From contig NZ_CAMYMD010000059.1 in the NCBI RefSeq assembly GCF_947259555.1, positions 124,001 through 188,000 of the forward strand: a stretch of DNA of 64,000 bases. Direction: 5' to 3'. The position numbers were made by a program, and so were the translations under genes. Below are positions 47,486-63,283 of the stretch, piece after piece (position 1 is the stretch's first letter; the number at the start of each line of letters is the position of its first letter). This DNA is from an uncultured Roseovarius sp. Its GTDB lineage: Bacteria; Pseudomonadota; Alphaproteobacteria; Rhodobacterales; Rhodobacteraceae. The notes under the pieces are model-generated. The model worked only from the letters and a program-made list of their open reading frames with translations. It was not told where the DNA came from and did not search any database.

Positions 47486-48850
47486 TCAGATCCAGATATC
47501 AGAAGAACAATCTCCGCCTGGATAGCGCGTTTCATGCGCCCGCGCAGGGCCGTGCGGCTCCTCATTGAAATCGACGAGGAAATTGTCGCGGATCGTCATG
47601 CCACCGTTTTCGTTGTCGCAATCCACGATCAGCATGATGCCCCCCTTGTCCTTCATCGACGGGTAGAACTGGTTGTCCCAGGTCGAGAAGAGTGATGTCG
47701 TGACATAGAGCCGCTTGCCGTCAAGCGACAACTGGATCATCTGCGGCGCGCCGTCGACGGTGCGGCCGTTCACCTCGGGCGCCTTGCCCAGAAGCCCGCC
47801 GATCCAGACCTGGCCGGTCAGCTTGGGGTTGGCCGGATCGGAGATGTCGTACTGGCGCAGATCCCCGTGCAGCCAATTCGAGAAGTAAAGGTACCTGTCG
47901 TCCATCGATACCAGGATATCGGTTATCAGGCTTGGCATCGGAACGGGAAAGCCTTCGACTTCCACGGTGGGCACGTCGATGATCTTGTTGATCTCGATCT
48001 TGCCGTTGTCTTTGTGATAATGAAAGATGTTCGACGCCAGGGCTGCCCCGACGAAACCATGCGTGCTGTCGGGATCGTGGTGGAACCGGGCCTCGAGCGG
48101 GATCATTCCTTCCTCGCCCAGGTCCACGGATTGTTCCACCTTGCGATTCTTGAAGTCCCAAAAATGGATGTGCTGGCCGTAGTTGCCGCGCGCGACGTCT
48201 TCGAGGTCAAAGCCCGGCATGAATGTGTTGGGCGACGCCCATTCTGTCGAGATCATCATGTTGTGGCGCGGCTGATACCAGAAGTCGTAGTTGTACTTCA
48301 TATCGCCCAGGTCTTTTTCCCAGCGCCCGATGATGTTGAACTCCTTGTCCAGATGCAGGAAACCGCCGGGCCCGTTGCCGTCGGCATCGCCCAGCATCGA
48401 CACGATGATGTCGGCACCGAGACAATGCACGGTGTGCGGGGCAGACAGGTTGGTCTTGGCCTTGATTTCGCCACCGTCGATGGTCTTGAAAAGCGTCGGC
48501 TTGCGCGGATCGGTAGCGGTATCGACGATGTAGAAATTGGTGGTGCGGACGCCTGGAATGATCAGGTATTTACGCTCCATGCTGCCATCGGTGTTGCAAG
48601 AGGAACAGGCGTTCCAGCCCATGTGGTGCAACTCGTCTCCGACGACCGGCATTTCTGTCCGATGAATCACCTCGCCGTAGGTTGGGCTGTCCTCGTCAAC
48701 GTCGATCGTGGCCAGGTAGTCGGGTTTCTCGATCCTGGTCCCGGTATAGATGCAGATGGTGTAGACCACCTTTTCGCGCGATGCCTTGATCGCCTCTTGC
48801 GGCGAGGTATAGCCCGGCCCTGCGCAGCAGCTCCCATTGTCTTCCGTCAT
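47486..48850 (-). CDS. mtoX: Methanethiol oxidase (selenium-binding protein 56 family)
   Basis: 454 residues, strongly similar over its whole length to the SELENBP1/MtoX family. Landmarks: GPGYTSPQEAIKASREKVVY, DELHHMGWNACSSC, YDFWYQPRHNMMISTEWA, PGLITDILLSLDD-type (here PSLITDILVSMDD), SNWLHGDLRQYDISDP and the terminal YPGGDCSSDIWI. The enzyme oxidises methanethiol to formaldehyde, H2S and H2O2 and uses copper. Methanethiol arises from DMSP in marine bacteria. There is no signal peptide, whereas the characterised Hyphomicrobium enzyme is periplasmic; the N-terminus is the cytosolic, animal-like type. SCO1 or mauG-like maturation genes are not adjacent. Confidence 0.92.
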   Translation of the reverse strand: MTEDNGSCCAGPGYTSPQEAIKASREKVVYTICIYTGTRIEKPDYLATIDVDEDSPTYGEVIHRTEMPVVGDELHHMGWNACSSCNTDGSMERKYLIIPGVRTTNFYIVDTATDPRKPTLFKTIDGGEIKAKTNLSAPHTVHCLGADIIVSMLGDADGNGPGGFLHLDKEFNIIGRWEKDLGDMKYNYDFWYQPRHNMMISTEWASPNTFMPGFDLEDVARGNYGQHIHFWDFKNRKVEQSVDLGEEGMIPLEARFHHDPDSTHGFVGAALASNIFHYHKDNGKIEINKIIDVPTVEVEGFPVPMPSLITDILVSMDDRYLYFSNWLHGDLRQYDISDPANPKLTGQVWIGGLLGKAPEVNGRTVDGAPQMIQLSLDGKRLYVTTSLFSTWDNQFYPSMKDKGGIMLIVDCDNENGGMTIRDNFLVDFNEEPHGPARAHETRYPGGDCSSDIWI

Positions 48851-55985: not shown

Positions 55986-56429
55986 TCATTGTGCCTCCAG
56001 TCCTTCAGGGGCATCTTGGGACGCGACGTGGAGCACGGTCAGCACCCGCCGTTTTCCGTCCCTGGTGTCCCAGTGAAGCGATGCTCCCTCGGCCAGGCCG
56101 ATAAGGGCGACTCCGATCGGCGTCAGGATCGAGATCCGACCGCGTGAGATGTCGGCCTCCTCGGGAAAGACCGGCGTTACCTTATTCTCTTGGCCGGTCG
56201 TTTCGTCGCGGTAGGTGACCGTGCGACCGATCGCCACCACGTCCGGCGGAAGTTTCGCAGCCGGAACGATGCGGGCCCGGTTAATCTCGCCGAGCAACCG
56301 ATCGGCAAGTTCCGGGTTTCGCTGGATCGCGCCCGCCGCAAGAGCTTCGAGCTTATCCAGGCAGTCGGCGCCGATGACGACCCTGGGCCGCCGGCCAGTG
56401 CCGCGTGAGGTGGAGCGTTGGTCGTTCAT
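55986..56429 (-). CDS. Rnk-type nucleoside diphosphate kinase regulator (GreA/GreB C-domain)
   Basis: 147 residues. The region from residue 20 (IGADCLDKLEALAAGA...) and the FKBP-like GreA C-domain (GRTVTYRDETTGQENKVTPVFPEEADISRGRISILTPIGVALIGLAEGASLHW) match Rnk. Rnk binds RNA polymerase and affects nucleotide kinase levels. It lies 83 bases behind a divergent paralog on the same strand. It is the most canonical of four related proteins in the window. Confidence 0.85.
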   Translation of the reverse strand: MNDQRSTSRGTGRRPRVVIGADCLDKLEALAAGAIQRNPELADRLLGEINRARIVPAAKLPPDVVAIGRTVTYRDETTGQENKVTPVFPEEADISRGRISILTPIGVALIGLAEGASLHWDTRDGKRRVLTVLHVASQDAPEGLEAQ

Positions 56430-56512: not shown

Positions 56513-56980
56513 TCAGGCTGCGTCGTGGTCCCGAGACGGACTCACATCCAGCACGACGACCGTCTCGATCTGACCGTCGTCCCGCAGGAGCGGCACCTTC
56601 TGTAGTTTTCGCATCCCGATCAGGGTCGCCCCAAGCAAGGATGCGACAAGAATGTGACCCGGGATCGGGACGGGGTTCATGGTAAGCACGCCGGTGCGAG
56701 CGCCCTCGCCGCTGATCATGTAGATGACGTGGCATCCGGCCACGACGAGATCGGGCGAGGCCGGCTCCGGAGCTCCGCGCGAGATCCGCAGCTTGTGGCG
56801 CAGGAGCCCGTTCAGAAGCGGGGGATTTGGCGCATTCTTGGTTCCGCGATGTCGGAGCAGGCGCTCGATGCCGAGGCGGTCGTTGACAGTGAGAAGAAAG
56901 CCGGTCTCGACTGCGGAGCGTTCGAACAGCGATCGAAAATCACTGCCCGCAGGCAGTTGGGTGAGTCTGGTGATGGTCAT
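56513..56980 (-). CDS. Divergent Rnk/GreA-C-like protein
   Basis: 155 residues. N-terminal helix pair (LLTVNDRLGIERLLRHRG) then a C-domain ending HILVASLLGATLIGMRKLQKVPLLRDDGQIETVVVLDV, the GreA/Rnk beta-hairpin pattern. Middle part is poorly conserved. Related genes are at 61929 and 62786, and the leader of this gene (57070-57112) matches theirs. First gene of a unit with rnk. Role unknown; binding to RNA polymerase is inferred from the fold. Confidence 0.65.
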   Translation of the reverse strand: MTITRLTQLPAGSDFRSLFERSAVETGFLLTVNDRLGIERLLRHRGTKNAPNPPLLNGLLRHKLRISRGAPEPASPDLVVAGCHVIYMISGEGARTGVLTMNPVPIPGHILVASLLGATLIGMRKLQKVPLLRDDGQIETVVVLDVSPSRDHDAA

Positions 56981-57069
56981 GATGTGTCTCCCGGGGCGTC
57001 GAAGCCCACGTTCTCAATTCAAGTATTTTGAGAAAACCCCGGGTGGTCGAAGACACGCTTATGCGCAGA

Positions 57070-57112
57070 CCGCCCGGGGACCCGAGCGGTTCAGAAGCAG
57101 AAACCGAAAAAG
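57070..57112 (-). promoter_or_regulatory. CTGAACCGC-type leader, copy 1
   Basis: Read on the - strand: TTTTTCGGTTTCTGCTT, then CTGAACCGC, then CCCCGGGCGG. The CCGC/GCGG arms can pair. It ends about 90 bases before the start of the Rnk-like gene at 56980. Confidence 0.6.
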
Positions 57113-57264
57113 GTTCTCGTGCGTGACCATTAGGAAAGCTTAGCCATTGGGCGCAAACTGTCAATCTTGGAGTCCGGGCCGGATATGCAACGGTCAAGGA
57201 TGCACAGCTCTTGAGAAGGTGAAGAGGGCGAATTGGTCCACGAGCGGACTTCGACGACAAGGGG

Positions 57265-57480
57265 TCACCGGCGGCGCACCTCGAAGAATGAGCCATGTCG
57301 AACTTCCTGGATCGGCCGGCGACGTGGCAGCGGGATGCTGTTTCCCGATGTCGTGCGCCCACCATCGTCTTCCCAACGCTCCAGGCATCTGGCGCTCGGC
57401 TTCGCCGCCGAAGGTTCTATGTCCGTCGGCCTGAAAAGGTCCGGGAACAGCTCTTCGAAGTCCGCCTTGCAGATCATCAT
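57265..57480 (-). CDS. Small hypothetical protein
   Basis: 71 residues from the ATG at 57480, behind a strong AAAGGAG. It begins MMICKADFEELFPDLFRPTD and ends in a basic region. No family recognised. It is downstream of the DUF1127 gene on the same strand and may be in its transcript. Confidence 0.55.
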   Translation of the reverse strand: MMICKADFEELFPDLFRPTDIEPSAAKPSARCLERWEDDGGRTTSGNSIPLPRRRPIQEVRHGSFFEVRRR

Positions 57481-57578
57481 TTTGTCACTCCTTTCAATCA
57501 CTTCATGGCGAGCCGCTACTCGGCCATTGCCGCGCACCACTGCGGTCCAGTGGTGCGCATTCTCAAGAATAGGACCCG

Positions 57579-57881
57579 CTATGCCGTTCGGCCGCCGCGC
57601 CACCCCGCATTGACATGCACATCCGAAGACACTGGACGCATGCTCAGTTCGCGATCCGTGAGACCATCGACGACGCGCGGGATATCACTGCGATCAATCC
57701 CGATGTCGCGCAGCAGGCGATCGTCCATGCCTCGAAGAGTTTCGATCATTTTCCGGCGTTGCCAGCGGTGGAATGCGGTCCGGAGCCAACGTCGAAACGC
57801 TCCGGGCTTGCGGTTGCGCTGACTGGCCGTTCGAGGGGGTGGGAAGTGAGGGGTATGGGATTTGAAGACGTGGGGGTGCAT
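57579..57881 (-). CDS. DUF1127 family protein
   Basis: 100 residues from the ATG at 57881 (GGAG ten bases ahead; an ATG at 57893 is possible). The C-terminal half is the DUF1127 helix (RRKMIETLRGMDDRLLRDIGIDRSDI). In Rhodobacter small DUF1127 proteins bind RNA and take part in stress and sRNA processing. An upstream element at 58045-58069 matches the Rnk-like leaders. Confidence 0.8.
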   Translation of the reverse strand: MHPHVFKSHTPHFPPPRTASQRNRKPGAFRRWLRTAFHRWQRRKMIETLRGMDDRLLRDIGIDRSDIPRVVDGLTDRELSMRPVSSDVHVNAGWRGGRTA

Positions 57882-58044
57882 GTCATGCTCCATGACGAAG
57901 AAACTGAACCGAGACGCACACACCACGTCAGCTGGGCGACCCGCACAGGCGTGATCTTCCGGCCATATTGGCGCGTTTGCCATTTCGACTGATCTGTAAG
58001 AGATCGAGAAGACCCCGAGGCGCGGACCGGCAAACGGCCTGATC

Positions 58045-58069
58045 CCGCTCGGGGCTACCGGCGGTTCAG
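58045..58069 (-). promoter_or_regulatory. CTGAACCGC-type leader, copy 4
   Basis: Read on the - strand: CTGAACCGC-CGGTAG-CCCCGAGCGG. Almost identical to copy 2 (61817-61841). It lies about 165 bases upstream of the DUF1127 start. Confidence 0.5.
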
Positions 58070-58242
58070 TGTGTTTCCTGCGTTGAGCAGGAACCTCGTA
58101 TGAAGACTGAACATGGTCATCACTAAGATATCGGTAGTCCGCGTCTGTTTATCAAGAAGTCGACGCAGTCTGCGACTTTCTGACACTGTTTGAACTTATC
58201 CAGAAATCCGGGTAACAAAAACCGAGCAACCTGCCGCTGCCA

Positions 58243-58814
58243 AGGCTTTGTTGGACAAATCCCATGCTGATCGGACTTCCCCTTTACCCAGACGCAGTTA
58301 TCTCACGGTTTTCGTGACGGGTCTTCCGAGTGCGGTATAGCCGTTCATGATGGCGATACGGACCTGGACATCGGCGTCCTGGCTATCGAAGTTCCGCGCC
58401 ATGAGGCGCTGCCCAAGCAGTTTCATACAGTGCATCTTGCTCTCGACATGGCTTCGGCGGTGGTGTCCTCTTCAGTTTCGCCAAATCGCGCGGCAGAGGC
58501 ATTTCGACGCCCGCAGGGCCTCGTTTTGCGCGATGGCACCCGCCGTGGTTGGCTTCCAGGGCCTGACATTCCGGCGTGGCGGTATGACGGCATGGGCACC
58601 GGGGTCCGCGATGGCATTGTGACAGTTGCGCGTGTCATAGGCGCCATCGGCGGTGACGCTCCCGATCTCTGATCGGGCGGGATCTGGCCCAGCAGGTCCG
58701 GCAGAACGGGTGCGTCCCCGATGTGGTTAGCGGTAATCTGGACAGCCCGGATCTCCAGAGATTGTTCGTCCATCCCGAGGTGGATCTTGCTCCATCCCTG
58801 CCGTTTGTTGGGGT
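58243..58814 (-). mobile_element. IS5-family element remnant
   Basis: On the - strand the end of an IS5-type transposase is readable in pieces: [46 protein letters not shown], then after a frameshift VTADGAYDT-like sequence and finally RRSHVESKMHCMKLLGQRLMARNFDS ... with its stop at 58298. A TGA lies in frame before RRSHVESK. A terminal inverted-repeat-like GGCTTTGTTGGACAAA is at 58244-58259. The 5' half of the IS and the rest of the interrupted ccoN are missing, so a deletion followed insertion. Inactive. Confidence 0.78.
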
Positions 58815-59270
58815 TGCCAGCCGCGCCCGGCTGGTGCGCTGCATGACATGGTAGGACGTGGCGATGAGGGCGTTGCCGCCGAAGCCGAAGATCACCCCCG
58901 ATATGTGAACGGGGCGGATGCGGCCGAAGCTCGATCAGGCCGCGTCGAAGCGCAGATCGGGCCAGGCAAGTTGCGCCGCGACCCAGACGCCCATGCCCAT
59001 ACCGACGACGGCCCAGAACAGGGCGATCACGAGCCTGGCCTTGGTCGGGTCATCATAGTAGTTGACCGTGCGGTCCTCGGCCGGTTCGGGCTCGCCAATC
59101 GCACGCATGACGAAGAAGGTCGTGATACCGGCTGCAATCAGCACGATCGCGCCGTGGCTCCCCATCGGATCGCCACGACCCGCTGCGGCCATCACCAGCC
59201 CGACAATCGCCATGACGGCACAAATCATGAATGCGATCTGGCGTTCGGCACCTGTCAACCGCTCCATCAT
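58815..59270 (-). pseudogene. Second ccoN, broken
   Basis: The start codon overlaps the ccoS stop (ATGA at 59267). The first 110 residues (MMERLTGAERQIAFMICAVMAIVG...) match CcoN, including the extra N-terminal helix of the copy at 24237. Then DAA[26 protein letters not shown] shows a TGG to TGA nonsense change. After TSRARLA the homology ends at about 58815 in the IS5 remnant. The remaining two-thirds, and ccoO/Q/P, are gone. Confidence 0.85.
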
Positions 59271-59452
59271 CTGGAAACCTCCCGGTCGGTTCTTTGTCTT
59301 GATGGCAGCGGACGGTCCTCCGTCTGGAGGATCCGGCGGGCATCGCCTTCCGAATCGTCGAACTGGTCGGTTTTCATCGCCCAGAAAAATGCTCCGAGGC
59401 CGATTGCACCCATCACCAGCGTTACGGGTATCAGCAGTAGAAGGATGCTCAT
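59267..59452 (-). CDS. ccoS: cbb3 oxidase assembly protein CcoS, second copy
   Basis: 61 residues: helix LLLLIPVTLVMGAIGLGAFFWA then DQFDDSEGDARRIL. The sequence is intact, unlike its ccoN partner. The ATG overlaps the stop of the nitronate monooxygenase frame. Likely a leftover of a second cco operon. Confidence 0.82.
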   Translation of the reverse strand: MSILLLLIPVTLVMGAIGLGAFFWAMKTDQFDDSEGDARRILQTEDRPLPSRQRTDREVSR

Positions 59453-60485
59453 GTCTGCCCCACCGTGGGTGTTCGCCGGTCTGATCTGAGTTGATCATGA
59501 GCCTCGGCGCAAAGGGCGTTCAGGCGCCGCGCCGCCGGGACTATCGCGTCGATCTCACCCGCGCCGGTGCCGCAATAAAGCGGCATCTGTTCCAGGTCTC
59601 CGGTCGTGGTGCGCAGGGGCGAGTCCGTGCTCTGGCGCAGCCGCGGAATGGGGCCGTCGTGGGCGATCACCTCATGTGTGATCCGCTCGGGGTCATGTCC
59701 TGTAAGGGCCGGGTCGAAGGCCTCTGTGACACTATTGCGAAGGACGCGCACGGCCGATCCTTTGGGCCAGTTCAGCACGAAGCCGTCGGTCAGGACGGTA
59801 TCCTCCCCCCGGGCGGTCACGATCCGTTGCTTGTGGTAGTCGTGGGCGAAGGATTCGGCCGTGGCCAGAAAGGCGGCACCGCACTGGACACCCTGCGCCC
59901 CGAACGAGAGCGCCCGGGCCAGCCCCTTGCTGGTGCCGATGCCGCCCGAGGCGACAACCGGCAGCGCCGTGGTTTTCAGCACGGTCCGTAGCAGGCCGAA
60001 TGTCGGAGTGCGCCCGTGAACGTGACCGCCCGCTTCCTGCCCCTGTGCGATCAACACATCCGCACCGGCGGCTTCGGCCTCCCGTGCCGCAGGCAGCGTG
60101 CCGACCTGATGCAGCAGACGTGCGCCTGCTTCCTTCACCTGGGCAAAACGGCCTCGGGCATGACGTCCCAAAAGAACGAGAACACCCCCGCCTCCATCGC
60201 GAGGCAGGTTTCGATCTGCTGGTCCAGCAGACCGGGGTCGGTGGCTGCGGGGATGAGGTTGACCGCAAAAGGGCGGTCCGACAGCCGGCGGTAGGCTTCC
60301 ATTTCCGAGTTGATGAGTGATGGCGCTTCGCGCACCATCCCCAACGTCGGGAAACCGCCCGCATTTGCGACCGCGGCGGCCAGTGCGGCGCGCGCGACGC
60401 CTCCCATCCCGGCCAGGATAACGGGATACTCACATTCCAGCAGATCGCACAGACGGGTGCGAAGAGACCCGGGTTCAAGCGTCAT
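59449..60485 (-). pseudogene. Nitronate monooxygenase-like protein, frameshifted
   Basis: A TIM-barrel 2-nitropropane dioxygenase family protein in two frames. The first 110 residues (MTLEPGSLRTRLCDLLECEYPVILAGMGGV...FFWDVMPEA) end at a stop. The rest continues in another frame as RFAQVKEAGARLLHQVGT...GADVLIAQGQEAGGHV...PVVASGGIGTSKGLARAL. One base lost in the GAGGCCGTTTTGCC stretch near 60165 explains it. FMN-binding parts are otherwise kept. Sequencing error cannot be excluded. It overlaps DUF488 upstream and ccoS downstream by four bases each. Confidence 0.78.
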
Positions 60486-60859
60486 GACTTGCTCCCCTTG
60501 AGCCGCTGCTTCAGGTAGTCCCGCAGGACCACAGCCTGGTTGTGTTCCTGGTCCTTCGCGGCGAAGAGCAGGGTGACGGGGCCGGCTCGGCACCATGCGA
60601 GGCAGCGTTCGATAGCGTCCGTGTTGTCAGCCAACTCGTGCAGGTAGCGGTTGCGGAATTCTCCCCATTTGTCCGGGTCGTGGTCGAACCATTTCCTGAG
60701 CTCGGTGGTCGGCGCGATGTCCTTAATCCAATCATCGTGCCCGAGATCGGCCTTCGAAATACCTCGCGGCCAGATTCCATCCACGAGCAGCCTCGTGCGG
60801 CCCGCGCCGGACGCCTCGTCGTGAACGCGGGCAATATCGATATCGAATTGCTTCGCCAT
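60482..60859 (-). CDS. DUF488 family protein
   Basis: 125 residues from the ATG at 60859. The pattern RLLVDGIWPRGISKADL...DEWIKDIAP-type (here DDWIKDIAPTTELRKWFDHDPDKWGEFRNRYLHEL) is clear DUF488. Function is not established. It sits between a truncated hemoglobin and the nitronate monooxygenase gene, an arrangement seen in NO-stress clusters. Confidence 0.88.
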   Translation of the reverse strand: MAKQFDIDIARVHDEASGAGRTRLLVDGIWPRGISKADLGHDDWIKDIAPTTELRKWFDHDPDKWGEFRNRYLHELADNTDAIERCLAWCRAGPVTLLFAAKDQEHNQAVVLRDYLKQRLKGSKS

Positions 60860-60866
60860 GCGAGGG

Positions 60867-61319
60867 TCAAACCAGTTTCGGGATGCCGGTGCCTTTGGCA
60901 TCCTCGACCGCGAAGTTGAGCGACCGGGCGATGCGTTCGGCCCGCTCGATGACATGGGCGGCGCCTGCGGGTGTGCAGATCTCCTTCGCGGTCTCGCGAA
61001 AGAGTGTGAGCCACCGCTCGAAATGGCCCCAGTCAATCGGCAGACCGACGTGCTTGGGCACCGGGGCGCCATGATAGCGGCCTGTCATAAGGGCAACGGA
61101 GGACCAGAATGCAGTCATCCGCTCCAGATGCGGTGGCCAGTCATCGATGCGTGCCGCGAAGATCGGGCCAAGAAAAGGATCCTGGCGGACCTTGTCATAG
61201 AAGGCATGGACCAACTCGCGCAGCACCGCGTCATCGAGCCCGGTCCGTGCCTCGAGATCGGCTGTGATCTCCGGTCGCACGGAGGGGCTGCGGGGTAGTG
61301 GTGTCTGGATGGAGGTCAT
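60867..61319 (-). CDS. Group III truncated hemoglobin, second copy
   Basis: 150 residues from the ATG at 61319. The core block ERMTAFWSSVALMTGRYHGAPVPKHVGLPIDWGHFERWLTLFRETA is paralogous to the copy at 26434, with the proximal His in PKHVGLPI. First gene of a - strand operon with DUF488, the nitronate monooxygenase frame, ccoS and broken ccoN. The NO-type palindrome (copy C) lies 51 bases upstream. Confidence 0.9.
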   Translation of the reverse strand: MTSIQTPLPRSPSVRPEITADLEARTGLDDAVLRELVHAFYDKVRQDPFLGPIFAARIDDWPPHLERMTAFWSSVALMTGRYHGAPVPKHVGLPIDWGHFERWLTLFRETAKEICTPAGAAHVIERAERIARSLNFAVEDAKGTGIPKLV

Positions 61320-61369
61320 CGGTGTGGCACCGTGGTCGCAGTTGTATTGACGGGGTACGCCTCTCAAGT

Positions 61370-61384
61370 GGTATTGTAAATACC
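61370..61384. promoter_or_regulatory. NO-locus palindrome, copy C
   Basis: GGTATT-GTA-AATACC, a perfect 6-3-6 inverted repeat followed by TATTAA. It lies between the hemoglobin gene (start 61319) and the divergent DUF6522 gene (start 61471). Confidence 0.66.
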
Positions 61385-61470
61385 TATTAAGGCCGAGCGC
61401 AATCGGGCGAAACCGCGCAGAGCCCGACTGGCGGAGATCGGCGCGGGACCAGGGCATTGGAGACGCTGGG

Positions 61471-61749
61471 ATGAGCGAAGTATCCAAAACCGACAGCGGG
61501 TTCGTTGTGGACGCAACCGCCATCGCGCGAGCATTCAAGATCACGGAGGAGCAGGTCCGGCAAGAGATGCGGAACGGCCTCATCAGCAGCCGCTCCGAGA
61601 GCGGGACAGACGAAGACGAAGGACGTTGGCGCATGACCTTCTATCGTGCCGACCGCGCGTTCCGTCTCGTTGGCGACGCACAGGGGGAGGTGCAGTCGCG
61701 AGGAAGCTTTCCCGTCACTCCGCGATCGCGGTCAGTGCGCCGGGATTGA
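61471..61749 (+). CDS. DUF6522 family protein, second copy
   Basis: 92 residues. SGFVVDATAIARAFKITEEQVRQEMRNGLISSRSESGTDEDEGRWRMTFYRADRAFRLV matches the protein at 20712 throughout. Both copies are tied to hemoglobin/cco loci. Its function is unknown; a small regulator is possible. Confidence 0.75.
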   Translation: MSEVSKTDSGFVVDATAIARAFKITEEQVRQEMRNGLISSRSESGTDEDEGRWRMTFYRADRAFRLVGDAQGEVQSRGSFPVTPRSRSVRRD

Positions 61750-61801
61750 CACTCGTTGGACGGCAAGCAATGATAAAACCATGGTCAGGTATCAGATCAA
61801 G

Positions 61802-61844
61802 TTTCGGTTTCTTCTGCTGAACCGCCCTTAGCCCCGGGCGGTTC
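61802..61844 (+). promoter_or_regulatory. CTGAACCGC-type leader, copy 2
   Basis: TTTCGGTTTCTTCTG then CTGAACCGC then CCCCGGGCGGTTC. The arms GAACCGCCC/GGGCGGTTC (61819-61844) form a 9-pair stem with an 8-base loop. It ends 85 bases before the Rnk-like gene at 61929. Confidence 0.62.
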
Positions 61845-61928
61845 GTGGGCGTTCTATACGCAGCGAACTCCCGGGGACATCTCGATAAAAGTTCTGAGAT
61901 TGTCGGAGGCAACTCCAGGGGGGGAAAC

Positions 61929-62381
61929 ATGGCCATACCTGACGTTACGGGATCAACGATACCGTGTCACGGAAAGCCCGAAGCGGGTGACGCGGAATGC
62001 AAGTGCCGCCTGACGAAAGCCGATCGGCTGGGGATCGAGAGATTTCTGAGCTTCGCCGGCAACAGCAGTGTCGCCTACTCCCAGCTTCTGCTGGATACTC
62101 TACACCAGAAACTACAGCTGGCCGTTGCGATAGTGGGTGCGGCACCGTCCGATGTTGCCACGTTTGGCAGCTTCATTTCCTGCGTGGTGGATGAGAAAGA
62201 TATCGAATGCGGGGTTCTCAGTTTCGGCTTGGTGGCGCGTGCCGGAGAAATCCCGATTCACTCCCTCCTGGGGGCCTCGCTCATCGGAATGTCGGTCGGG
62301 CAACGCACTAAGCTGCTATCTGAAGACGGCACAACCCGGTCATTGGTGGTAACCCAAGTGGGCACGCCTTTTGCCGTGTAG
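61929..62381 (+). CDS. Divergent Rnk/GreA-C-like protein
   Basis: 150 residues. It has the LTKADRLGIERFLSF N-terminal helix that resembles LTVNDRLGIERLLRH in the 56513 protein, and ends EIPIHSLLGASLIGMSVGQRTKLLSEDGTTRSLVVTQV, the GreA/Rnk C-terminal hairpin. Two cysteines near the start (ECKC). Clearly one of a paralog set with those at 56513 and 62786. Function unknown. Confidence 0.65.
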   Translation: MAIPDVTGSTIPCHGKPEAGDAECKCRLTKADRLGIERFLSFAGNSSVAYSQLLLDTLHQKLQLAVAIVGAAPSDVATFGSFISCVVDEKDIECGVLSFGLVARAGEIPIHSLLGASLIGMSVGQRTKLLSEDGTTRSLVVTQVGTPFAV

Positions 62382-62785
62382 TGACGGGATGTAATGATTG
62401 TGATCTCGGTCGGAGCGCTCGAGCATCCTACGCGGGAACTATCGGCATCAACTGCTTGCCTGGAGGCGAGACGGCCTCACGGGCTTCATTTTCCGTCTCA
62501 CGTAATAGTTTCCGGCCCGGCCTGAAAGGATCAGCCCAGCGGGTGGTGGTGGCATCCACTGCTCCGAGGACCCACCATAGTTTGACTTGGCGTCGGAAAC
62601 TTCATAGCGTCTCTTGATGTCTGTGTTCTCATGCAAAAACAGAGGCCGGTCTTTTCCGGGATCTCTGCTGAACCGCTCCCTGCCCCGGGCAGGGGGTCGC
62701 ATGCGCTGACCTTTACGCTCGGGGATCTTCTTCACCAACAACTTTGGCGTCTTGAGGCTTGCGTCGAGCAAGCCGAGGAGAAGAT
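62382..62785. other. Intergenic stretch with leader copy 3
   Basis: About 400 bases between two Rnk-like genes. Apart from the leader element at 62654-62693, nothing is supported; short frames on both strands lack ribosome sites. Confidence 0.4.
62654..62693 (+). promoter_or_regulatory. CTGAACCGC-type leader, copy 3
   Basis: TTTTCCGGGATCTCTG, then CTGAACCGC at 62668 and CCCCGGGCAGG at 62683. CCCTGCC/GGCAGGG can pair, with outer ACC/GGT. It ends 93 bases before the Rnk-like gene at 62786. Confidence 0.58.
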
Positions 62786-63283
62786 ATGCGAACATCAAAT
62801 GACGTGGCGACTTTCGCAGGCAGATCAGGCAACCAAGCTGCCGCGATTGATAGCCGGGCGTTCGGAAGCGTCGAGGCCATGCGACCGATCCAATCGTTCC
62901 TGTCCGAGCGGGACTTCTGGCACCTGCAACAGCTGCGGAGGGAGTGTGCCGCTATCGAAGGCGGTGTCTTTTCTCTGCTATCCCACCTGATCCGGGCTAA
63001 GCTTCAGGATGCTCATATTCTGAACCCCGCAGAAGAAGCAGGAAGTGTCGCCACTCTGGGTTCACGTGTGACTTTCTCTATCAGGGAGACGGCACCACTA
63101 TCTCGGACACTCTTTGACGATGGTTTTGCACATGACCAGGAAGGTATCCCGCTCAAGACATTCCTCGGGGTCACCTTGCTCGGAATGAAGGTGGGCCAGA
63201 CGGTGCCGCTTCTAAACGCAAGTGGGACGACGGAGGCGCTCGAGCTTGTTGCTATACCGTGGCAAGTTGAGGCGAGAACGTAG
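62786..63283 (+). CDS. Divergent Rnk/GreA-C-like protein
   Basis: 165 residues from the ATG at 62786, with GAGGAG ahead. A longer N-terminus with low similarity, then LGSRVTFSIRE and LKTFLGVTLLGMKVGQTVPLLNASGTTEALELVAI, the GreA/Rnk hairpin signature shared with the 56513 and 61929 proteins. Followed by a good hairpin terminator at 63328. Function unknown. Confidence 0.62.
   Translation: MRTSNDVATFAGRSGNQAAAIDSRAFGSVEAMRPIQSFLSERDFWHLQQLRRECAAIEGGVFSLLSHLIRAKLQDAHILNPAEEAGSVATLGSRVTFSIRETAPLSRTLFDDGFAHDQEGIPLKTFLGVTLLGMKVGQTVPLLNASGTTEALELVAIPWQVEART

Follow-up and report, generated by a model that had tools for sequence, protein, structure and literature searches.

What does a short sequence element do when it stands before genes of two unrelated families? 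The question is raised by a 64,000-nucleotide (nt) stretch of an uncultured Roseovarius sp. (Rhodobacteraceae; contig NZ_CAMYMD010000059.1, positions 124,001 to 188,000), hereafter the window, in which an element containing CTGAACCGC precedes three Rnk-like genes and a DUF1127 gene. Here, we report that CTGAACCGC encodes Leu-Asn-Arg (LNR) near the end of an unannotated upstream open reading frame (uORF), and we consider it likely that the copies are leader-peptide attenuators, each placed in the 5' leader of one stress gene, and that they belong to a new family that couples two kinds of stress protein to the behavior of the ribosome. That the element is a cis-acting regulator containing a leader peptide can be held with high confidence. 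The controlled genes encode suspected stress proteins acting on RNA polymerase or RNA, and the switch probably sets these genes on or off according to ribosome performance.

All four copies reported in an initial annotation of the window are present in its sequence: c1 at 57070-57094 and c2 at 58045-58069 on the minus strand, and c3 at 61817-61841 and c4 at 62668-62693 on the plus strand. The spacer between CTGAACCGC and the second motif, CCCCGRGC, first described as 6-7 bases, is exactly 6 nt in each of them, and the second motif lies 87-163 bases before the assigned main start codons (56980 for c1, 57881 for c2, 61929 for c3 and 62786 for c4), close to the 85-165 bases originally given. The upstream sequence TTTCGGTTTCT, which had been assigned to copies 1 and 2, is common to copies 1 and 3; copy 2 has GGTTCCTGCTCAACGCAGGAA at the same place. 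When the 3.93-Mb host genome was searched for CTGAACCGC-N6-CCCCGRGC, one mismatch being allowed, the four matches all fell within this 5.6-kb stretch, and a reversed control pattern had none. A host-genome search that recovered copy 4 alone did so because it used a 7-nt gap; its three other matches equaled the three matches of the control.

The sample behind the comparisons below comprises 168 distinct copies, from the window, from fetched genome stretches and from a pattern scan of named genomes (at least 117 stretches). Most loci were fetched by patterns holding CTGAACCGC, and the pattern of the named-genome scan also held the 3' arm of the hairpin described below; the conservation of the pattern letters (CTGAACCGC and parts of the hairpins P2 and P1') is thus no independent test. 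No search pattern named a gene. Two regular-expression matches without the uORF arrangement (L047 at 1917 and L068 at 1999) were treated as chance and excluded from alignments. Of 110 non-redundant copies, 101 were carried onward, nine being omitted by hand without a criterion.

The coding nature of the motif, evident in all four window copies (uORFs of 16-30 codons), was absent from the first reading, which took the conserved CTGAACCGC for an operator or a purely structural RNA arm; it is the Leu-Asn-Arg of a leader peptide, and nearly all of the 168 collected copies are in frame within a short ORF. The uORF begins with an ATG 12 or 17 codons before the CTG of the motif: exactly 36 nt upstream in 81 of 94 copies of the type that precedes Rnk-like genes (Rnk type) and exactly 51 nt upstream in 59 of 62 copies of the type that precedes DUF1127 genes (DUF1127 type). 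Of 40 distinct copies with the exact motif, drawn from the window and the fetched genome stretches, 36 have the ATG at one of these two positions. The conserved peptides end in ...RFLLLNRP(xPRAV) or ...RFLLxAGxLLNRR, with conserved His, Phe, Arg and Leu residues followed by the Asn and Arg of the motif. The DUF1127 type has five additional codons; a conserved Ala-Gly is among them, and they form part of an internal hairpin, TTCCTGC/GCAGGAA. In all 63 DUF1127-linked copies, a single codon separates LNR (LTR in one copy) from the stop, and 83 of the 95 Rnk-linked copies carry a longer peptide tail.

Codons before the motif, outside all search patterns, provide a test of coding selection. The synonymous share of single-base codon differences is 0.59 in frame versus 0.09 and 0.16 off frame in the Rnk type (40 non-redundant copies), and 0.46 versus 0.18 and 0.24 in the DUF1127 type (35 non-redundant copies). 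The Leu at -1 is kept in all 40 non-redundant Rnk-type copies through four different codons. A search of the collected loci that started from the hairpin and the uORF found LNR or LTR in 142 of 148, a figure biased by the fetching of most loci with CTGAACCGC; its informative subset is the 12 copies with a changed nine-mer, seven of which are synonymous LNR and five LTR. Judged from these substitution patterns, the uORF is under selection as a coding sequence. In three annotated plasmid stretches, none of seven uORFs overlaps a listed gene, the gene table being incomplete.

The leader marks Rnk-like and DUF1127 genes together, as initially proposed. With downstream genes called by blastp (E up to 0.001) against the DUF1127, Rnk-like and Rnk proteins of the window, 158 of the 168 copies precede a DUF1127 gene (63) or an Rnk-like or Rnk gene (95), with the ORF within about 470 nt. 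In the Rnk type, the main start lies 108-119 nt after the CTG in 73 of 84 copies. The ten copies lacking a gene match are the two chance matches, five with short flanks (at most 311 nt of downstream sequence; two of these show an Rnk-like or DUF1127 start by hidden Markov model) and three, at L046 (1948), L101 (4289, minus strand) and L112 (4318, minus strand), that are unexplained: good leader copies with no recognizable DUF1127 or Rnk-like gene downstream. The host genome has five DUF1127 matches, one of which alone lies behind this leader.

The three Rnk-like proteins of the window have no Pfam match at E 0.001. They are mutual relatives and join canonical Rnk with hhalign probabilities of 91-95.5% in single pairwise comparisons, so that homology to Rnk is clear by profile-profile comparison only. 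The functions initially attached to the Rnk-like and DUF1127 proteins, polymerase binding and RNA binding, are predictions from family membership. The features of the four loci are as follows, with hairpin extents as read from the sequence.

57059-57130, minus strand: c1 uORF, leader peptide MVTHENLFRFLLLNRSGPRAVCA followed by a stop, predicted leaderless; TTGACA-N16-TAAGCT ends 6 nt before the ATG.
57037-57079, minus strand: c1 hairpin P2, CCCCGGG ... CCCGGGG with an inner GGTC/GACC stem, then TTTTCTC; by sequence reading, its 5' arm lies inside the c1 uORF.
56513-56980, minus strand: c1-controlled Rnk-like gene, 155 amino acids, the first gene before canonical rnk (protein comparison).
55986-56429, minus strand: canonical Rnk (Rnk_N and GreA_GreB, above the Pfam cut-off), downstream of the c1 Rnk-like gene on the same strand.
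58055-58120, minus strand: c2 uORF, leader peptide MTMFSLHTRFLLNAGNTLNRR followed by a stop, with the internal hairpin TTCCTGC/GCAGGAA; boxes TTGATA-N16-CGATAT, RpoH-like.
58013-58054, minus strand: c2 hairpin P2, CCCCGAG ... CTCGGGG, directly 3' of the uORF stop, with pyrimidine tail TCTTCTC.
57579-57881, minus strand: c2-controlled DUF1127 gene (PF06568), 100 amino acids counted from the proximal ATG, with 57983 as the start of the longer ORF.
61781-61831, plus strand: c3 uORF, leader peptide MVRYQIKFRFLLLNRP followed by a stop; promoter TTGACA-N17-AATGAT.
61832-61876, plus strand: c3 hairpin P2, CCCCGGG ... CCCGGGG, directly 3' of the uORF stop.
61819-61844, plus strand: c3 rival hairpin, GAACCGCCC/GGGCGGTTC (sequence reading).
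61929-62381, plus strand: c3-controlled Rnk-like gene, 150 amino acids (protein comparison).
62617-62709, plus strand: c4 uORF, leader peptide MSVFSCKNRGRSFPGSLLNRSLPRAGGRMR followed by a stop; boxes TTGACT-N17-TAGCGT.
62683-62724, plus strand: c4 hairpin P2, CCCCGGGC ... GCTCGGGG, with its 5' arm inside the uORF.
Near c4 P2, plus strand: c4 rival hairpin CCCTGC/GCAGGG (sequence reading).
62786-63283, plus strand: c4-controlled Rnk-like gene, 165 amino acids (protein comparison).

The element recurs in related genomes. A covariance model of the leader, with the best 12 candidates scored per genome, matched 30 of 295 sampled genomes of the family at E up to 0.001 (25 at E 1e-6 or better) and, across the class, five of 289 genomes at E up to 0.01, host included. 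The CTGAACCGC-N6-CCCCGRGC pattern, with at most one mismatch, occurs in 70 of the 295 family genomes, where the reversed control has 20 matches; many of the single-mismatch cases look like chance. Among the four non-host class-level matches, G497, which belongs to a different family, shares the layout: an LLNR-containing uORF and then an ORF read by eye as DUF1127-like; the other three have no such hairpin. We inspected twelve loci, namely eleven weaker or distant model matches and L076, and found the leader layout in L188, L217, L219, L221 and L076. No such hairpin was seen in L189, L190, L191, L218, L220 or L223, and L222 has a hairpin without a uORF; since these seven lack the full layout, some of the weaker model matches are probably chance. 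In L219 (G091), L221 (G205) and L076 (at 5041), LLTRTLPRAE replaces LLNR and the rival hairpin is CTCTGC/GCAGAG instead of CCCTGC/GCAGGG; L219 has an Rnk-like ORF downstream, as read by eye.

The named matches listed include Hyphomonas, Mesorhizobium, Hoeflea and Bauldia, some of them metagenome-assembled. Plasmids carry some of the copies, and a few copies occur elsewhere among Alphaproteobacteria; a search with the Rnk-like protein matched eight plasmid records, and the element pattern had no match in viral contigs. In Alloyangia, the leaders are plasmid-borne and neighbor genes for cbb3 oxidase and denitrification (ccoNOP, nirK, hmpA and hemN), and the order of an Rnk-like gene followed by canonical rnk is the same as in the window; in Leisingera, the leaders lie near type IV secretion genes.

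The sequence immediately upstream of the uORF differs between the two types. A -10-like box ends 6-7 nt before the uORF ATG in both. When compared with the RpoH promoter consensus, the DUF1127-type boxes (51 non-redundant copies) read TTGAAA-N16-CCATAT, sharply placed before the ATG and with RpoH-like spacing. The Rnk-type boxes, TTGAC...TAnnnT, are sigma-70-like and more loosely spaced. In Rhodobacter sphaeroides, a DUF1127 gene is reported to be under RpoHI/RpoHII control (PMC10673084). Shine-Dalgarno sequences are not enriched before the uORF (5 of 64 and 6 of 51 copies versus 4 and 3 in control stretches). Given a promoter-like -10 box that ends 6-7 nt before the ATG, the uORF is probably leaderless, and the boxes together with the lack of Shine-Dalgarno enrichment place the predicted transcription start at the A of the uORF ATG, give or take a base or two.

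These observations bear on the two alternatives of the initial annotation, a structured 5' leader or a shared promoter/operator. Each type has its own promoter-like boxes upstream, so the shared element is not a promoter; what the copies share is a leader on the gene side of the predicted promoters. An operator, that is, a DNA-binding regulator that recognizes CTGAACCGC-N6-CCCCGGGCGG and co-regulates the genes, would account for the same sequence before unrelated genes and for its GC-rich palindromic parts, as well as for the 24 loci (for example, L045, L058, L165 and L184) with divergent leader pairs 236-280 bp apart, in which one DUF1127 and one Rnk-like gene flank the pair in 19 of the 19 cases with both genes identified. 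The motif, however, lies 36-51 nt downstream of the predicted transcription start, in a fixed reading frame whose neighboring codons change mostly synonymously, and we regard an operator as highly improbable.

Besides the peptide, the leaders have conserved hairpins. The GC-rich hairpin P2 (CCCCGRG/CYYGGGG) overlaps or follows the end of the uORF, and a rival hairpin uses the same 5' arm: P1' pairs CCGCCCG, just after the AA of the Asn codon, with CGGGCGG, and P2 pairs CCCCGGG with the distal CCCGGGG, the two having the CCCCGGG strand in common. Arms that can pair are present, as initially noted, and P2 occurs in all four window copies. Across the alignment, P2 is kept in 98.2% of cells and P1' in 89.7%, both partly fixed by the search patterns. 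Of the 40 exact copies retrieved by patterns lacking the 3' arm, all 40 retain at least six of the seven P2 pairs. In the Rnk type, the variable base matches both partners (C,G,C in 49 of 63 copies; T,A,T in 5 of 63, possibly one lineage); P1' is shorter in the DUF1127 type. In the latter type, the uORF-internal hairpin TTCCTGC/GCAGGAA is kept with T-A to C-G exchanges. Two-sided change, the sign of compensation that the initial annotation proposed to look for, was found, in a single column of each hairpin.

A purely structural RNA leader, binding a protein or a metabolite and with an incidental uORF, would fit the retention of P2, the inner stem and the uORF-internal hairpin with some compensatory changes. 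It would also fit the Arg codon, which is CGC in all twelve copies with a changed nine-mer, so that it may be constrained at the RNA level as well. The synonymous change seen specifically in the uORF frame and the strict position of the ATG argue the other way, as does the lack of an Rfam match in the stretches searched, and this explanation seems to us quite improbable. Rfam 15 covariance models, including those of rnk leaders, gave no match at the gathering threshold in the window and ten further loci or at E up to 1 in 56900-58200, in agreement with the original remark that the leader resembles none known.

A leader-peptide attenuator accommodates both the peptide and the hairpins, and we propose that it would operate as follows. 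A sigma-70-like promoter (Rnk type) or an RpoH-like one (DUF1127 type) is predicted to start transcription at or near the A of the uORF ATG, giving leaderless translation. Ribosomes would then translate the conserved peptide, as codon selection suggests, and their position on the Leu-Leu-Asn-Arg codons or on the stop codon may choose between P1' and P2, which would be mutually exclusive. P2 would set the output. In DUF1127 leaders, it may terminate transcription, given the U-rich tail that follows (at least five T of nine in 37%); by the usual signs of an intrinsic terminator, the match in this type is weak. In Rnk leaders, P2 may instead gate translation, because the pyrimidine (C/U) tract after it can pair with the Shine-Dalgarno sequence of the gene: in one Rnk subclass, the post-P2 tract is complementary to the GAGGAG Shine-Dalgarno in 16 to 20 of 20 copies per pair, and in another, the codons after LNR are complementary to CCGGGAG in 15 to 18 of 18. 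We infer the signal, its direction and the division between transcriptional and translational output.

Several observations weigh against this mechanism. Two-sided change is confined to one P2 column (12 cells) and one P1' column (6 cells); in the DUF1127 type, the sixth P1' pair is broken, with G opposite G in 43 of 50 copies, and the fifth is C-A in 6 of 50. P2 and the LNR motif are conditioned by the search patterns, and base composition alone gives as many P2 pairs with a mean probability of 0.08. The Rnk type has no U-run after P2 (mean T 0.36 in 9 nt; TTTT in 2%). Folds with a blocking ribosome change Shine-Dalgarno accessibility in no consistent way, the Rnk-type means being 0.23 free, 0.31 with a ribosome at LNR and 0.24 with one at the stop. 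The complementarity of tail and Shine-Dalgarno shows no significant covariation beyond that expected from shared sequence: permuted pairings are at least as good as the native ones in 695 of 5000 trials for the Rnk type and 2895 of 5000 for the DUF1127 type, and in the Rnk type a control segment located 22 nt beyond the tail has almost the same pairing strength (mean -7.5 versus -8.0). Neither of these two tests supports a Shine-Dalgarno switch. Finally, a scan with the strict sigma-70 consensus picked out c3 as the only promoter among the four, and the Rnk-type -10 boxes are weak. For lack of a U-run, P2 was rejected as an intrinsic terminator in the Rnk type; a consensus terminator scan picked up a single weak terminator-like site, at c1, and no site at c2, c3 or c4.

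If transcription ended at P2, the leader might be a source of a trans-acting product, a small mRNA or small RNA (sRNA), with the LLNR-family peptide or the RNA acting elsewhere. Selection on the peptide itself and the U-rich tail of DUF1127-type P2 are compatible with this, and the same class offers a precedent in rnTrpL/peTrpL of Sinorhizobium meliloti, as reported (PMC7298713, PMC10117765). The near-fixed distance to the main start in the Rnk type and the tie to two gene families indicate action in cis instead, and the Rnk-type P2 is without a U-run; we judge a trans-acting product unlikely.

How the cis-acting attenuator relates to known systems can be considered in turn. Rfam includes rnk leader families of Gammaproteobacteria; these are structured leaders before rnk, as here, but the present family has no Rfam match in the stretches searched, and a leader peptide is one of its main conserved parts. 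Arrest leader peptides of Gram-negative bacteria, such as SpeFL, are short, carry a motif near the stop codon and control the RNA that follows. The window family resembles TnaC and SpeFL in the shortness of its peptide and in the motif that ends it close to the stop, and differs in being predicted leaderless. TnaC is mentioned as an arrest leader peptide in PMC12218461. The trpL/peTrpL attenuator of S. meliloti is reported to have a leaderless leader-peptide ORF that starts at the AUG (PMC10117765), as predicted here; unlike it, the window family lacks a series of codons for a single end-product amino acid, its target genes are not biosynthetic and its Rnk-type P2 lacks a U-run.

The closest counterpart is S. 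meliloti duf1127_1, where, as reported by Kothe et al. 2025 (PMC12218461), a DUF1127 gene is subject to uORF-dependent attenuation: destroying the uORF start relieved repression, tetracycline induced the gene, and six DUF1127 genes were among the 30 most tetracycline-induced genes. Both systems have a short uORF in the leader of an alphaproteobacterial DUF1127 gene, and translation-dependent control was proposed there as a monitor of translation capacity (PMC12218461). By contrast, transcription of duf1127_1 is reported to start 30 nt upstream of its uORF, which has 29 codons and a Shine-Dalgarno sequence; no intrinsic terminator was found there, Rho being proposed instead, and the peptide residues named (C11, A15 and T17) do not fit those of the window family, which is predicted leaderless, has conserved hairpins and also serves Rnk-like genes. 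We therefore keep the two apart on the grounds of the Shine-Dalgarno sequence before the duf1127_1 uORF and its lack of a terminator hairpin. In the open-access journal literature covered, four motif peptide strings had no match, and among the matches listed the S. meliloti DUF1127 study alone was directly relevant.

By analogy with that study, the signal sensed by the attenuator is most likely translation capacity itself, that is, slow, stalled or missing ribosomes, because the S. meliloti gene was derepressed by destruction of the uORF start and induced by tetracycline (PMC12218461); we put the chance that translation stress is the signal, with impaired uORF translation raising expression, at roughly even. 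More tentatively, and with the odds against it, the LLNR leaderless arrest-peptide sensor might be a general ribosome-state detector placed on two unrelated effectors, under two sigma classes and with two outputs (transcription for DUF1127 and Shine-Dalgarno gating for Rnk), possibly sensing free 70S ribosomes or a peptide-stalling ligand.

Other genes of the window were also noted. Beside the leaders, at 59267-61749, lies a small redox/nitrogen-stress cluster with the same order as on the Alloyangia plasmid: ccoS (FixS), a nitronate monooxygenase split between two ORFs, DUF488, a globin that narrowly misses the Pfam cut-off, and DUF6522. The adjoining ccoN (cbb3 oxidase subunit I; 58935-59270, minus strand) is cut off, its 111 residues being 93% identical to Alloyangia CcoN (550 amino acids) before the frame ends; beyond it, at 58.3-58.9 kb, the sequence resembles transposase remnants by eye where the Alloyangia plasmid has the rest of ccoNOP. 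Farther away, 47486-48850 (minus strand) encodes an SBP56 family protein (Pfam selenium-binding protein), a relative of methanethiol oxidase below the NCBIfam cut-off.

The leaders described here make up a compact regulatory family that is unannotated where checked. If the attenuator reading is true, it would provide a concrete route by which the performance of ribosomes is linked to the Rnk-like and DUF1127 proteins, two groups of poorly understood role in physiology, and would point to leaderless initiation as a sensor built into attenuation in Gram-negative bacteria. The use of the same peptide sensor with two classes of promoter offers a natural comparison, and, if it is indeed a general detector, the LLNR sensor would form a mobile translation-stress regulon reporting to RNA polymerase and RNA turnover.

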